Source: an uncultured Bacillota bacterium
GTDB taxonomy: Bacteria > Bacillota_I > Bacilli_A > RF39 > UBA660
Reading direction: 5' to 3'
DNA length: 51,109 nucleotides
NCBI GenBank assembly: GCA_900317975.1
Contig: ONIZ01000004.1
Span: 1 to 51,109, forward strand
This document shows positions 15,261 through 21,569 of this stretch, piece after piece. Each line of letters opens with the position of its first letter. Position 1 is the stretch's first letter. Position numbers and translations under genes: made by a program. The notes beneath the pieces were generated by a model. It did not search any database. It had not been told where the DNA came from and saw only the letters and a program-made list of their open reading frames with translations.

Positions 15261-16484
15261 ATGGAGAAAAAAGTAGAAAAAGAGAATTTAGATAATAAAA
15301 ATCTAAATAAAGTAATTAAAAGATCAAAAGATGTATTAAATGTTTTATATTTAATAGGAATAATAGTCTTATTAATACTATTAAGTAGATTATTCATTGA
15401 ATACAAAATATTTAAAATACTAGGGGAAATATTATCAGTAATTTCACCATTATTTATAGGTTTTGTAATAGCTTGGTTAATAGATCCTTTTATAAAGAAA
15501 ATTACTAAAATATCAAAAGACAAAATACCTAGATTTGCATCAACTATAATTGCATATTTAATTGTAATAGGAATTATAGTAGGAATGATAGTTATTATTT
15601 CACCTCAATTAGCTAGTCAAATTAAAGATTTTGCTGGAAAAGTTCCATATATATTAAATGATATAAAAGAATGGATTAATAGTTTATTTAAAACACTAAG
15701 TGTAAATGGACTAAATACAAAAGAAGTTTCAACTGAATTAACTAAAAAAGTTATTAAAATAACTCAATCATCTACTAGTGAAATAGCTAATTTCATGTTA
15801 CAAGCAGGAACTGGAACAATAAATGTACTAGCTAAAATCATTTTAGGTATCATGGTAGCATTCTACTTATCATTAACATTTGATAAGCTAAATGACAAAA
15901 TAGAAAAAAAATTACCTGAATCATGGAGAGATAATTATAAAGAATTAATTAAAAGAATAAACACTTCATTAAGAGATTATGTAGGTGGAGTATTAATTAT
16001 AATGGTTCTAGTATTTATAACACAATTAATTGGATTCTCAATAATAGGTTTAGAAGCTCCAATAATATTTGCAATATTCTGTGCATTAACAGATATAATT
16101 CCATATTTTGGACCTTATATAGGAGCAATTCCTGCAGTAATAGTAGGATTTGCCGAATCACCTTTAGTAGGAGTTATGACAATATTAGTAATATTTATAT
16201 GTCAACAATTAGAAAACAATATCTACCAACCAATTATTATGGGTAAAACAATGAAATTACATCCAATTACAATAATGTTAGGATTATTACTATTTGGACA
16301 TTTCTTAGGCATATTAGGTATGATAATCGCAACTCCAGTAATCGCAACAATTAAAGTAATATATGATTTCATACAAGAACAAAAAGAAGAGAATAAAGAC
16401 TCTGATGATGTAGATGATAAAACAAAAGAAAACTTTATAGAAAAGATTACAAATATAGTAGATGGAAATATTGAAACAGATTAA
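15261..16484 (+). CDS. AI-2E family transporter (TerC/PerM-like permease)
   Basis: A 407-aa protein with about eight membrane helices in the family order: two pairs near 25-75 and 85-120, a soluble helical segment (about 120-200), then a C-terminal bundle with the family hallmark DIIPYFGPYIGAIPAVIVG and the following NNIYQPIIMG and HPITIMLGLLLFG. The tail is charged. Members of the family export varied small substrates or act in Na+/H+ exchange; the substrate here is unknown. The T-box transcription unit begins just after its stop codon. Confidence 0.92.
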   Translation: MEKKVEKENLDNKNLNKVIKRSKDVLNVLYLIGIIVLLILLSRLFIEYKIFKILGEILSVISPLFIGFVIAWLIDPFIKKITKISKDKIPRFASTIIAYLIVIGIIVGMIVIISPQLASQIKDFAGKVPYILNDIKEWINSLFKTLSVNGLNTKEVSTELTKKVIKITQSSTSEIANFMLQAGTGTINVLAKIILGIMVAFYLSLTFDKLNDKIEKKLPESWRDNYKELIKRINTSLRDYVGGVLIIMVLVFITQLIGFSIIGLEAPIIFAIFCALTDIIPYFGPYIGAIPAVIVGFAESPLVGVMTILVIFICQQLENNIYQPIIMGKTMKLHPITIMLGLLLFGHFLGILGMIIATPVIATIKVIYDFIQEQKEENKDSDDVDDKTKENFIEKITNIVDGNIETD

Positions 16485-16528: not shown

Positions 16529-16720
16529 GAAATGAAATATTAGATAATGATTAAAGATTAGTATTAATATGATGTTTTATAGAAAGACTTTGTTGATGGA
16601 AATAAGTTAAACTAGTATTAAGAAGCTCCTTTATGAATCTAATCGGTAAAACCGTTATAAGAAATTAAGACCAAGAGTAGGATGGTAAAGTGTCTAATCA
16701 CTCCTATAATTGGTCTTTTA
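16529..16720 (+). ncRNA. T-box riboswitch leader, probably alanine-specific
   Basis: Elements in T-box order. Stem I base ATTAGAT/ATCTAAT (16538-16544 with 16637-16643). Loop-E partners AGTA (16560-16563) and GAA (16622-16624), with the TTAATA/TATTAA helix between them. Apical TTGATGGAAA near 16592. Stem II CGGT-AAA-ACCG followed by TTATAAGA. Antiterminator: TAGGA/TCCTA (16678-16682, 16702-16706), bulge TGGTAAA, upper stem GTG/CAC. The codon right after GAA is GCT (Ala), which fits alaS as third gene of the operon; a one-base offset would read CTC (Leu). Bulge TGGT would pair with a tRNA ending ACCA. Stem III appears missing, and the terminator stem AAGACCAA/TTGGTCTT encloses the antiterminator instead of competing with it. 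Confidence 0.85.
16667..16720 (+). terminator. Terminator-like stem of the T-box leader
   Basis: AAGACCAA (16667-16674) pairs with TTGGTCTT (16710-16717), followed by TTATTTG. Its loop holds the complete antiterminator. CTCCT at 16701-16705 is also complementary to AGGAG of the ribosome binding site at 16729-16733. Confidence 0.65.
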
Positions 16721-16740
16721 TTTGTTTAAGGAGGGGTAAA

Positions 16741-17286
16741 ATGAAAATATATGTAATTACAGGACACGCAAAGTCTGGAAAAACTACTTTTGGAAATATT
16801 CTAAGAGATAAGCTAAAAGAATATGGATATAAACCATGTGTTATGCAAATAACTTCGCCATTATATCATTATGCAGAAGATTATTTTGAATGGGATTCTA
16901 GACAGGATGAAAAGCCTAGAGAATTCTTACAAAAATTTGGAATAGAAATAATAAAAGAAAAATTGCATAAAGATAAATTCTTAATAAATAGGTTAGAAGA
17001 AGATATAGAAATTCTTTCTAATTTCTTCAACTGCTTTATAATTACAGATGCAAGATTCAAAAAAGAATTAACTGAATTAAAAGAAAAATATAAAGATGTA
17101 GTAACAATAAAACTAGAAAGAACAAATTATGATGATGAATTAAGTGAAGAAGAAAGATCTCATGTTACAGAAATCGAAGTAGATAAGATTAATAATGTTA
17201 AATATCTAGTTCAAAATAATAGTTTTAAAGATTTAAAAGAGTATGCTGAAATGATTATTTCTAAGGAGGAAGATGATATTATATGA
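16741..17286 (+). CDS. P-loop deoxynucleoside monophosphate kinase-like protein
   Basis: A 181-aa P-loop NTPase. Walker A is GHAKSGKT (8-15). It resembles dNMP-kinase/adenylate-kinase-like proteins, with a mixed alpha/beta core, a DAR motif (ITDARFKKEL) in place of Walker B, and LERTNYDDELSEEERSH, a lid-like Arg segment. Probable role is phosphorylation of a (deoxy)nucleotide or related small molecule; the exact substrate is not clear. The start is the ATG at 16741, 4 nt after AAGGAGGGG; an upstream in-frame start would lie in the T-box stem. Its stop overlaps the start of cmk (ATGA). First gene of the T-box operon. Confidence 0.75.
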   Translation: MKIYVITGHAKSGKTTFGNILRDKLKEYGYKPCVMQITSPLYHYAEDYFEWDSRQDEKPREFLQKFGIEIIKEKLHKDKFLINRLEEDIEILSNFFNCFIITDARFKKELTELKEKYKDVVTIKLERTNYDDELSEEERSHVTEIEVDKINNVKYLVQNNSFKDLKEYAEMIISKEEDDII

Positions 17287-17930
17287 TAGTCGCAATAGAT
17301 GGACCTGCAGGAGCAGGAAAAGGAACAATAACTTCATTAGTTGCTGAAGAATTAAATTTGGTAACTATTGATACAGGAGCAACTTATCGTTGTGTAGCAC
17401 TACAATGTTTAAATGAAAATGTAACACTAGATGAACCTGAAAAAATAATTGAAATAGCTAAAAAAGTAAAAATAGATATGGATGAAAACAAAAATGTATT
17501 CTTAAACGGAAAAGATGTTACTAAAGAAATTAGATCAACTGAAGTAACTAGTATAGTATCACCCGTATCTTCAATTCCTGAAGTAAGAGATGAAATGGTA
17601 AAACTACAAAGAGAACTTGCTAAAGGAAAGAATGTAATAATGGAAGGAAGAGATATTACTACAGTAGTATTTCCAGAAGCAGATTTTAAATTCTATTTAG
17701 ATGCAGAAGTGGAAGAACGAGCCAGAAGAAGAGTAAAACAAAATGAAGAACAAGGTATCGAATCAAATTATGATGAAATATTAGAAAGTATTAAAAAACG
17801 TGATTATAATGACATGCATAAAGAAAAAGGTGCCTTAATAAGAACAGAAGATCAAATATATATAGACTCAACAAATATGTCTATAGAAGAAGTAAAGGAA
17901 ACAATAATAAAGCACATAAAAGGAGAATAA
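17283..17930 (+). CDS. cmk: Cytidylate kinase
   Basis: 215 aa. It phosphorylates CMP and dCMP. P-loop DGPAGAGKGT (about 5-14), then TGATYR, GRDITTVVFP (NMP site) and a lid with EERARRR and KKRDYNDMHKEKGAL, all as in Cmk. The start overlaps the preceding stop. alaS begins 2 nt after its stop codon, so the three genes are one transcript under the T-box. Confidence 0.95.
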   Translation: MIVAIDGPAGAGKGTITSLVAEELNLVTIDTGATYRCVALQCLNENVTLDEPEKIIEIAKKVKIDMDENKNVFLNGKDVTKEIRSTEVTSIVSPVSSIPEVRDEMVKLQRELAKGKNVIMEGRDITTVVFPEADFKFYLDAEVEERARRRVKQNEEQGIESNYDEILESIKKRDYNDMHKEKGALIRTEDQIYIDSTNMSIEEVKETIIKHIKGE

Positions 17931-17932
17931 AC

Positions 17933-20623
17933 ATGAAAAAATTAACACATAATGATATAAGAAACTTATGGTTTAAATATTTTGAAGAAAATGGTCATAA
18001 AGTATATGAATCAGCTCCATTAGTACCAATTAACGATGATTCAATACTATGGATAAATGCCGGAGTAACTCCATTAAAGAAATATTTTGATGGAACAGAA
18101 ATTCCTGATTCAAGAAGAATAGTAAATATCCAAAAATGTATAAGAACTAATGATATTGAAAATGTAGGAATTACTAAACGTCATCAAACTTTCTTTGAAA
18201 TGATGGGAAACTTCTCAGTAGGAGATTACTTTAAGAAAGAAGCAATTCATTTTGCATATGAATTATTAACATCACCTGAATATTTTGATATTGATAAAGA
18301 ATTACTATATGTAACAGTATATTCAGATGATGAAGAAGCTAAAAAATATTGGATAAATGAAGGATTAGCTGAAGATCATATAGTTCCTTTAGAAGGAAAC
18401 TTTTGGGAAATAGGAGAAGGTCCTTGTGGACCAGATTCTGAAATATTCTTTGATAGAGGAGAAGAATATGAAACAGAACAAAATGATGCTCTTAAAAGAT
18501 TTAAAAATGATGAAGAACAAGAACGTTACGTAGAAATATGGAATAATGTATTCTCTCAATTCAATTCAGAAGAAGGAAAAGAAAGAAGTGAATACAAAGA
18601 ATTACCATCTAAAAATATAGATACAGGAGCTGGATTAGAAAGATGGTGTTGTATATTCCAAGGAGTAGATTCCAACTTTGAAACAGACTTATTTAAACCA
18701 ATTATTGATCATATAGAAGAAATATCAAAAGTTAAATATACAGGTCAAAAAGAATTTAAAATAATAGCTGACCATATTAGAGCAATCACTTTTGCAATAT
18801 CAGATGGCGCAACATTTGATAACGTAGGAAGAGGATATGTATTAAGAAGATTACTAAGAAGAAGTGTACGTTTTGGTAAAAATCTAGGAATAGAAGGACC
18901 ATTTATGTACAAATTAGTAGATTCAGTTATAAAAGTTATGCAAGAAGCTTATCCAGATATAGTAGAAAAAGTATTAGAAGTTAAAAAAGAAATAATTGAT
19001 GAAGAAGAATTATTCTTAAAGACACTTTCACAAGGAGAAAAAAGACTACAACAATTAATAGATAATTGTAAAGATAACTATATTTCAGGAGAAGAAACAT
19101 TTAAATTATATGATACATATGGATTCCCATATGAATTAACTGAAGAATATTTACAAGAAGCAGGAATTAAAACATCTAAAGAAGAATTTGATAAATATAT
19201 GAATATTCAAAAAGAAATGGCTAAAGCATCTACTAAGAATATTTCAGCTATGGCATCACAACATAAAGTATTATTAGACTTCAAAAAAGAATCTACTTTT
19301 GTATATAACTTATATAGATTAAAAACTAAAGTTATAGGATTAATAAAAGATGAAAAAGAAGTAGATGAATTATCAAAAGAAGGTCTAGTAGTTTTAGAAA
19401 GAACATGTTTCTATGCAGAACAAGGTGGACAAGTAGCAGATACAGGAATGTTAATAGGAGATAACTTTAAAGCAAGAGTATTAAATGTAATTAAAGGACC
19501 TAACGGTCAAAATATTCATAAAATTAAAATACTTGATGGAACAATCAAATTAGATGATAAATGTGAAGTAGTAATTGATAAAGAAAAGAGAAAAGATACA
19601 GAAGTAAATCACTCAATGGTTCATATATTACAATATGCACTTCAACAAGTAGTATCAAATACTATTAAACAAGCAGGATCATATGTAGATGATAAAAGAT
19701 TAAGATTTGATTTTACTTATAATGGTAAAATGACAGATGAAAAAATCTTAGAAACTGAAGAATTTGCTAATGAATATATTAGTAAAAACTTAATAGTTTC
19801 AACAGAGATTCTACCAATAGAAAAAGCTAAACAACTAGGCGCAATGGCTCTATTCGGAGAAAAATATGGAGATCTAGTTAGAGTAGTAAAAATAGGTAAA
19901 TCAATAGAATTCTGTGGAGGTACTCATACATCTAATACTAAAAATATTAAGGCTTTTGCAATAACTAATGTAGAATCAAAAGGATCAAATGTATATAGAA
20001 TAGAAGGAACAACAAATGATAATATTGAACCAACTCTATTTAATATATTAAAACCTTTTAATGATGAAATAGTAAAATTAGAATTAAAATCTAAAGAAAT
20101 TCTATCTCAAGCTAGAAAAGAAGGATTAAAACTAGATTTTAAACTAAATATAGATAAAGTTAAACCAACATCATATAAAGATATAATATTTATTAAAAAT
20201 GAATTAAAATATGTACAAGAAGAAATTAAAAAACTAGAAAAAGAGTATTATTCATTAAAAGAAAAAGATGTATTAGAAAACTTAGATATCTATAAAGAAC
20301 ATGAAAAAGAGATAAATGGAATCAATACTATTATTATGAAAACAAATAATAAAGATAAAAAGATTCTAAAAAGTATAGCTGATTCATTAGTAAATAATAA
20401 ATCTAATATATTTGTATTCTTTGCTAATGTAAAAGATGACTCAGTTAACTTAATCGCAAGAAGTGAATCAAATATCTCTGCAGGAGATGTAATTAAATAT
20501 GTTTCAACTCTAGCAGGAGGAAATGGAGGAGGAAAACCAACCTTCGCAGAAGGTGGTATAAAAGATAGTTCTAAAACAGATGATATTCTAGAGGAAGTAG
20601 AGAATTATATAAATGGCAAATAA
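17933..20623 (+). CDS. alaS: Alanyl-tRNA synthetase
   Basis: 896 aa, full length. The class II catalytic core opens with LWFKYFEENGHKVYESAPLVP. An editing domain carries the zinc-ligand pair HSMVH and the FCGGTHTSN motif. The C-terminal (C-Ala) dimerisation domain ends with a Gly-rich GGNGGGKPTFAEGG loop. It charges tRNA-Ala and is the likely reason for the T-box leader at the head of the operon: uncharged tRNA-Ala would raise expression. Third gene of the unit, preceded by AAAAGGAG. Its last 11 bases overlap holA. Confidence 0.97.
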   Translation: MKKLTHNDIRNLWFKYFEENGHKVYESAPLVPINDDSILWINAGVTPLKKYFDGTEIPDSRRIVNIQKCIRTNDIENVGITKRHQTFFEMMGNFSVGDYFKKEAIHFAYELLTSPEYFDIDKELLYVTVYSDDEEAKKYWINEGLAEDHIVPLEGNFWEIGEGPCGPDSEIFFDRGEEYETEQNDALKRFKNDEEQERYVEIWNNVFSQFNSEEGKERSEYKELPSKNIDTGAGLERWCCIFQGVDSNFETDLFKPIIDHIEEISKVKYTGQKEFKIIADHIRAITFAISDGATFDNVGRGYVLRRLLRRSVRFGKNLGIEGPFMYKLVDSVIKVMQEAYPDIVEKVLEVKKEIIDEEELFLKTLSQGEKRLQQLIDNCKDNYISGEETFKLYDTYGFPYELTEEYLQEAGIKTSKEEFDKYMNIQKEMAKASTKNISAMASQHKVLLDFKKESTFVYNLYRLKTKVIGLIKDEKEVDELSKEGLVVLERTCFYAEQGGQVADTGMLIGDNFKARVLNVIKGPNGQNIHKIKILDGTIKLDDKCEVVIDKEKRKDTEVNHSMVHILQYALQQVVSNTIKQAGSYVDDKRLRFDFTYNGKMTDEKILETEEFANEYISKNLIVSTEILPIEKAKQLGAMALFGEKYGDLVRVVKIGKSIEFCGGTHTSNTKNIKAFAITNVESKGSNVYRIEGTTNDNIEPTLFNILKPFNDEIVKLELKSKEILSQARKEGLKLDFKLNIDKVKPTSYKDIIFIKNELKYVQEEIKKLEKEYYSLKEKDVLENLDIYKEHEKEINGINTIIMKTNNKDKKILKSIADSLVNNKSNIFVFFANVKDDSVNLIARSESNISAGDVIKYVSTLAGGNGGGKPTFAEGGIKDSSKTDDILEEVENYINGK

Positions 20624-21569
20624 TTATTTCATAGAAAATGAAGATAACTTCTTAATAGAAGAAAAAATAAAAGAAATAATAAAAAAAGAAAAGTTTAATG
20701 ATGTAACACCTACTACTTATGATTTAGAACTAACTTCTCTTGAAAATGCATTAGAAGATCTAGATACATATTCATTTCTAACTAATAAAAAAGTAATTAT
20801 TATTAGAGGACTAGATAAAATAGTAAAAAAGAATCTAGATTATGATATAGATTCATCACTTGATCACTTATATAAATATTTAAAAAATCCTGTAGATGAT
20901 AATCTATTAATAATTAGAGTAAACAAATCAGATAGTAAGCAAAATATGTATAAGAAACTAAAAAGTCTATGTACTGTAGAAGAAATTAAAACAGATATAA
21001 AAAAATTAGTACAAGATAAATTAAAAGATTATAAATTAGAAAAAAGATTTATAGATTATTTAATAGAATACTGTAATAATGATATAACTAAAATATCAAA
21101 TGAAGTAGAGAAATTAAAAAATTATCGACTAGAAGAAAAAGAACTTACTATAAAAGATATAGATGATTTGGTAATTAAAGAATATGGAGATTCTAAAAAT
21201 CTATTCTTTAGTTTTCTAGAAAATGTAGGAAAAAAAGATATTGAAAATTCTTTAAAATCATATAGAGAATTAAAAAACTATGACATGAATGATTTAGGAT
21301 TATTAACATCAATATCTAATCAAGTAAGATTAATGTATACAGTTAAAGTCTATGAAGAAAAGAAATATTCTAATGATGAAATTGCTAAAAGACTAAATGC
21401 TAAACCATATAGAATAATGAAAATTAGAGAATTAACTAGACTTTATACATTAGAAGAAATAAGAGGATTAATGATTAAATTAGAAGAAATTGATCTAAAA
21501 ACTAAATCTACTGATGAATCTACTAATTCATTAATAGAAAACTTTATAATTAATTTAAAAAAAGATTAA
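20613..21569 (+). CDS. holA: DNA polymerase III delta subunit
   Basis: A 318-aa clamp-loader wrench subunit. It has the HolA three-domain pattern: an N-terminal AAA+-like domain without Walker A (YFIENEDNFLIEEKIKEI, then FLTNKKVIIIRGLDKI), a lid, and a helical collar (LGLLTSISNQVRLMYTVKVYEE, then LNAKPYRIMKIRE). The start overlaps the end of alaS by 11 nt with a GAGG site inside alaS, so translation is coupled. Last gene of the T-box operon; a replication factor is therefore transcribed under aminoacyl-tRNA control. Confidence 0.92.
   Translation: MANNYFIENEDNFLIEEKIKEIIKKEKFNDVTPTTYDLELTSLENALEDLDTYSFLTNKKVIIIRGLDKIVKKNLDYDIDSSLDHLYKYLKNPVDDNLLIIRVNKSDSKQNMYKKLKSLCTVEEIKTDIKKLVQDKLKDYKLEKRFIDYLIEYCNNDITKISNEVEKLKNYRLEEKELTIKDIDDLVIKEYGDSKNLFFSFLENVGKKDIENSLKSYRELKNYDMNDLGLLTSISNQVRLMYTVKVYEEKKYSNDEIAKRLNAKPYRIMKIRELTRLYTLEEIRGLMIKLEEIDLKTKSTDESTNSLIENFIINLKKD

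Follow-up and report, generated by a model that had tools for sequence, protein, structure and literature searches.

The window, a stretch of 51,109 nucleotides from an uncultured Bacillota bacterium, carries a leader region (16529-16740) with an AI-2E-type transporter gene upstream (ending at 16484) and a kinase-cmk-alaS-holA row downstream; the row and all leader features described here lie on the forward strand. The first gene (16741-17286), for a small kinase similar to deoxynucleotide monophosphate kinase (PF21448, E 6.6e-6, slightly short of its cut-off), has the Shine-Dalgarno sequence AAGGAGGG at 16728-16735, with AGGAG at 16729-16733. It is followed by genes for cytidylate kinase (cmk, 17283-17930), alanyl-tRNA synthetase (alaS, 17933-20623; TIGR00344), and the delta subunit of DNA polymerase III (holA, 20613-21569).

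A search with the covariance model RF00230 (cmscan), suggested as a check when the leader was originally predicted to be a T-box, matches 16538-16708 to model positions 1-219 with 42.8 bits (E 2e-8 to 3e-8). Because this falls short of the gathering score of 93, Rfam's default settings report nothing; in the whole genome there are 13 RF00230 matches below E 1e-7. Stem I spans approximately 16538-16640, with the IIA/B element next and the antiterminator last. The AGUA strand at 16560-16563 aligns with the AGUA of the model and is presumably the loop E strand, and GCU (16625-16627), after GAA, is what we take to be the alanine specifier from its position within the T-box pattern and from the alaS operon; the specifier is GCU in most of the listed relatives and GCA in L025. 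The element at 16644-16657 (CGG..CCGUUA), predicted as stem II, is present, but the Rfam alignment relabels it as IIA/B with the F-box CCGUUA, the F-box being placed in IIA/B in the accessible part of a 2020 review (PMC7583486). A conserved AAUUAAG (16663-16669) aligns at the RRR of the RRRxG purine string. The antiterminator comprises the 5' strand of helix A1 (UAGGA, 16678-16682), the T-box bulge UGGUAAA (16683-16689), helix A2 (GUG/CAC with loop UCUAAU, 16690-16701), and the A1 3' strand (UCCUA, 16702-16706), which makes up most of CTCCT (16701-16705).

This leader is a real alanine T-box upstream of the kinase-cmk-alaS-holA row, given the RF00230 match below the cut-off, the complementarity of UGGU to the ACCA of tRNA-Ala, and the presence of alaS in the gene row. 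The bulge between A1 and A2 is 7 nt long, and its UGGU fits the ACCA end of the genome's tRNA-Ala(UGC) (L289); A1 and A2 are paired, A2 covaries among 91 aligned leaders, and the specifier GCU agrees with alaS in the regulated operon. The tRNA-Ala genes among the 19 tRNA loci scanned have the anticodon UGC; reading GCU would then take a wobble pair, unless there is a further tRNA-Ala. Instead of UGGUACC the bulge reads UGGUAAA, a form otherwise present only in the near twin L010 among the leaders listed (UGGUAAC in L026 and L033), and this copy could therefore be weakened. Outside the window, contig C82 of the same assembly (G000; MAG contamination 7.09%) carries a second set of tRNA genes, of an unusual kind, which may stem from foreign DNA in the bin.

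In the standard T-box account, terminator and antiterminator have strands in common. Here the AAG of AAUUAAG is the foot of a terminator 5' arm, AAGACCAA (16667-16674), whose 3' arm, UUGGUCUU (16710-16717), is overlapped by a U-rich tract, UUUUAUUU (16716-16723). The two arms, AAGACCAA and TTGGTCTT, enclose TAGGA-[UGGUAAA]-GUG-loop-CAC-UCCUA (16678-16706), with the U-run starting at 16716; the original prediction that the terminator surrounds the whole antiterminator and can coexist with it is exact in its coordinates, and the fold energies agree. The segment 16660-16725 folds at -20.1 kcal/mol, compared with -9.35 +/- 2.34 for shuffles (z -4.6, none of 200 as good). The nested hairpin with an intact antiterminator reaches -15.5 kcal/mol, compared with -4.6 kcal/mol for the antiterminator alone, and terminator and antiterminator are therefore not mutually exclusive. 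Ordinary T-boxes form the terminator 5' strand from the 3' strands of A1 and A2 (PMC7583486 and PMC10907184, in their accessible parts). This feature of the platform is absent in the window, where the nested helix excludes neither A1 nor A2, and a scan of the window for a competing terminator of the usual kind found none better than the nested one. The prediction had likewise seen no such terminator and apparently no Stem III, of which no hairpin was detected in the window (locus L009).

We compared the outer helix among relatives, the first gene being found in 146 of 193 genomes of the family and leaders being taken from 70 of these 146, to which was added a named set gathered without regard to geometry (described below). 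In a test of 91 leaders, the AAG ahead of A1 fixed the place of the 5' arm and the U-run that of the 3' arm, pairing itself playing no part in the choice of arms; L203 and L247 were left out, an early TTTT having shifted the anchor. The six fixed outer-helix positions are all paired in 66 of the 91 leaders listed. Counting distinct arm pairs, 101 of 168 cells are paired, compared with 68.4 +/- 6.0 when shuffled (reached by 0 of 20,000 shuffles), and with the AAGACC group removed and only CTCCT-bearing leaders retained the count is 59 of 96, compared with 40.3 +/- 4.9 (reached by 2 of 20,000). An earlier anchor set gave 168/212 vs. 127 +/- 5.7 (0/10,000), and long-linker leaders gave 41/112 vs. 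38 +/- 4. On a MAFFT alignment, unfitted to structure, the outer helix has 29 double-change cells vs. 6.9 +/- 2.2, and pairing is 82% in the true register vs. 31-56% when the register is slid. The arm pairs observed include AAGACC/GGUCUU, AAGAUCUA/UAGGUCUU, AAGCAGCC/GGCUGCUU, AAGACUUAAG/CUUAAGUCUU, and AAGCAACUUG/CGAGUUGCUU. Inside the helix, the four inner A1 pairs are invariant in the 91 sequences, and the three A2 pairs are standard in all 91 aligned leaders, with many double changes.

Taken alone, the pairing in the window reaches a p of only 0.045 against shuffles of its own upstream sequence. A strict dinucleotide-shuffle test calls only 19 of 38 leaders in the alanine set nested (38 of 72 loci were parsed), because several pairings of 6-7 bp in AT-rich DNA reach just p 0.05-0.19, a weakness of which the fixed-register tests are free. 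A control that swaps upstream sequences between leaders is uninformative for the alanine group, since the alanine arms share AAGACC, and was replaced by dinucleotide shuffles and upstream sequences from other families.

We further examined the geometry across T-boxes, calling a leader nested when the nested helix beats any other and its shuffle p is at most 0.05; parsing kept 235 antiterminators in all sets. Nested T-boxes make up 4 of the 11 parsed in this genome (from its 13 matches to RF00230 with E below 1e-7), 6 of 24 in a sample of the family drawn without regard to alanine (29 loci, L300-L328, best-scoring matches only), and 2 of 8 in the genome G039 (9 loci). In the named set, collected by an antiterminator pattern blind to geometry from at least 114 stretches, 34 of the 92 parsed are nested among the matches listed; G256/G257 give 7 of 11 (17 loci), these genomes having been picked after a nested match was seen and so not being a fair sample. 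Among other families of the class (51 parsed of 60 loci) only 1 of 51 is nested and 47 are canonical. The same geometry is built from unrelated arms within this genome, namely AAGACUAUAA/UUAUAGUCUU in L001, AAGAUUAUUACA/UGUAAUAAUCUU in L003, and CUUCUAGAAUA/UAUUCUAGAAG in L045, and T-boxes with independent arms comprise these three together with L310, L318, L328, L333, L340, and L155. The unusual terminator geometry offered in the original prediction is thus supported by a conserved and covarying outer helix that recurs with unrelated sequences in other T-boxes.

Among 80 matches listed, 71 distinct antiterminators were classed: 29 nested, 36 canonical, 5 of the bulge type (of which L167 and L203 are nested by eye), and 1 with none. 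Nine listed loci had no parsed antiterminator (L156, L159, L162, L169, L173, L174, L185, L215, and L235); by eye, L156, L185, L215, and L235 look nested, and L159, L162, and L174 look like chance matches. Single named matches that are canonical come from Clostridium (L216), Limosilactobacillus (L175), Spiroplasma (L199 and L213), Sharpea (L208), and Faecalibacillus (L228). Leaders of the same first gene differ in form: some are nested (e.g., L011 and L034), some have a terminator using A1 and the UGGUACC bulge (L015 and L063), and some are canonical. An ordinary competing terminator in relatives, which the original prediction had named as speaking against it, is thus found in some of them only (for example, L047, L061, and L078). 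The occurrence of all these forms before the same first gene suggests, at the level of sequence, that they are functionally interchangeable.

In the bulge-type T-boxes L008, L015, L044, L320, L324, and L342, the terminator 5' arm consists of the A1 strand plus the UGGUACC bulge, so that the tRNA site is directly hidden. The first five are of the same lineage as the window, and L015 stands before the same first gene. Like the terminator in the window, the terminators of these five do not use the A1 3' strand as their 5' arm; unlike it, they engage the tRNA-binding bulge, which rules out the antiterminator directly.

Outside this lineage, the antiterminator pattern occurs in 9 of 197 Saccharibacteria genomes. 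One of these leaders (L346) is without a U-run; the other eight, each with a U-run, may form a nested pairing; this exceeds the canonical pairing in strength in three and falls behind it in five, and they are therefore not counted as clear cases. T-box-like leaders in Saccharibacteria MAGs are found at L194:6064-6200 and L235:3640-3790 (both on the reverse strand) and in L347-L354; the two checked precede ileS, and AUC-containing strings in these leaders may be isoleucine specifiers. An RF00230 search of two Saccharibacteria genomes at E 1e-6 gave no match.

The G.U pair that closes A2 is the presumed amino-acid sensor. In the window a G-C pair takes its place, as in 46 of 49 nested leaders lacking Stem III, and canonical leaders with Stem III (n = 100) have 55 GU, 26 AU, and 19 GC. 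The sensor of the tRNA 3' end includes a purine string and Stem III (RRRxG-Stem III-AA) before A1, as set out in the accessible part of the 2020 review (PMC7583486). This discriminator is incomplete in the window, where AAGAC and AA align and Stem III is absent; most alanine leaders likewise have no Stem III, and the window's arm starts with AAG at the RRR of RRRxG. According to excerpts of PMC6197855, shortening Stem III changes tRNA binding only slightly. We called a Stem III in 24 of 73 nested leaders; in 21 of these 24, five or more nucleotides of its 3' strand belong to the terminator 5' arm, which usually takes in the loop and the AA flank too, and the exceptions (L040, L182, and L196) resemble false Stem III calls. 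Because the arm is made of the 3' strand of Stem III, Stem III and the terminator cannot form at the same time. Where a leader has a Stem III, its position obliges every arm immediately before A1 to overlap it, so the overlap alone is no proof of function. Of 28 leaders scored as non-nested and lacking Stem III, 20 have a TTAAG-like string 5-11 nt upstream of A1 (L203 and L247 among these 20 appear nested on inspection), and the string is therefore not there merely for terminator pairing.

We propose that the leader is an alanine T-box that controls transcription through a nested terminator competing with the Stem III/purine-string strand and not with A1/A2, a reading to which we assign a probability of roughly two in three (0.66). 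Comparison of leaders shows a predicted OFF hairpin in which the strand just upstream of A1 pairs with the strand before the U-run and so closes around an intact A1, bulge, and A2. The on/off decision probably rests on the element adjoining the antiterminator. By analogy with solved T-box discriminators, an uncharged tRNA bound at the bulge would bring the Stem III/purine-string strand to dock in the groove between tRNA, bulge, and A2; held there, the strand would be kept off the 3' arm and RNA polymerase would read through, and if no docking took place it would zip onto the 3' arm and transcription would stop. In the window, where Stem III is gone, the docked strand would be the AAUUAAG string with its short linker. 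The switch would thus set the terminator against the purine latch and leave A1/A2 out of the contest. For relatives that have Stem III, strand competition between it and the predicted terminator is shown at the level of base pairs; for leaders without Stem III, mutual exclusion of purine string and terminator is argued from known structures. Counting against the proposed reading are the UGGUAAA bulge, the G-C closure of A2, and the modest p of the window's own pairing.

The tight spacing between AAG and A1, most commonly 7 nt (39 of 138 leaders, automatic anchoring), and the absence of any shared base between antiterminator and outer helix also accord with gating by steric means or tether only, in which a tRNA bridging Stem I and the bulge would stretch the linker so that the outer helix could not zip, and the purine string would have no role. 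Sequence alone does not tell such gating from docking of the latch, but gating of this kind leaves the conservation of AAUUAAG in leaders without nested terminators unexplained, and we consider it unlikely. A further alternative places the switch inside the hairpin: in the window's lowest-energy fold, UGGU pairs with the AUCA beside the A1 3' strand (-19.0 kcal/mol vs. -15.5 with A1/A2 intact), a pairing that in the OFF state would hide the tRNA site until tRNA opened it, and the relatives L008, L015, L044, L320, and L324 do use the bulge as a terminator 5' arm. The A2 pairs, standard and with many double changes in all 91 aligned leaders, and the loss of the AUCA partner from L011, L014, L025, and others make this distinctly improbable. 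Pairing of UGGU with AUCA as a conserved switch was rejected, its AUCA partner not being conserved.

The low Rfam score, the AAA in place of ACC in the bulge, and the missing Stem III would also fit a leader in decay whose terminator is constitutive and which does not respond to tRNA. We hold this to be very unlikely, as the leader is kept in the close relative G002 (97% identity) and in G003 (75%), and many leaders without Stem III keep UGGUACC, A1, A2, and covarying arms. A translational switch in which CTCCT sequesters the AGGAG of the first gene, the other mechanism raised in the original prediction, is scarcely credible: the window's two motifs are complementary, and in the fold of 16529-16740 the ribosome site is indeed paired, albeit with another stretch near 16625-16632, but CTCCT is fixed by A1 as its 3' strand (the inner A1 pairs being invariant in 91 sequences), a U-run follows the nested hairpin, and of the 53 leaders with CTCCT at the A1 3' strand (among 65 nested ones) only 28 have AGGAG before the start codon, so that the pair (16701-16705 with 16729-16733) does not covary. 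Since 25 of these 53 leaders have no AGGAG, a conserved role of the T-box 3' region in hiding the ribosome site was rejected.

In relation to known systems, the nested leader has in common with transcriptional T-boxes of the Bacillus subtilis glyQS type (RF00230) a Stem I with specifier, IIA/B with the F-box, a UGGN bulge between A1 and A2, a synthetase operon, and an intrinsic terminator. Unlike that type, it keeps A1/A2 intact inside the terminator, is without Stem III, and closes A2 with G-C, not G.U. A precedent for switching at the level of a linker is the Mycobacterium tuberculosis ileS T-box, which is described in the accessible text of PMC10907184 as having a pre-formed antisequestrator and a linker dislodged by charged tRNA; its output is access to the ribosome site, whereas the window has a terminator with a U-run. 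We found no earlier description of a nested T-box terminator in the literature searched, whose scope leaves the main older surveys outside, and none is described in the accessible portions of PMC7583486, PMC7778990, PMC2494555, PMC2965389, PMC6197855, and PMC10907184.

The leader is a genuine T-box, and its expression platform differs from that of the textbook in a manner that is conserved; its mechanism is in part inferred. In our estimate the case is evenly balanced for a distinct T-box expression platform, in which a terminator around the antiterminator would compete with Stem III or the purine string and switching would run through the discriminator latch and not through A1/A2; this platform would be common in the uncultured Bacilli family, would be built from unrelated sequences in several T-boxes within a single genome, and might extend to Saccharibacteria before ileS.

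The role of Stem III and the purine string has been recognised only recently. A covarying terminator that spares the antiterminator would move the decision to these two elements, and nested leaders would offer natural sequences for testing the role of Stem III. Scans that require competition between A1/A2 and the terminator, or that apply the Rfam cut-off, will miss such switches, and the terminator geometry of one gene's leader can change between relatives.
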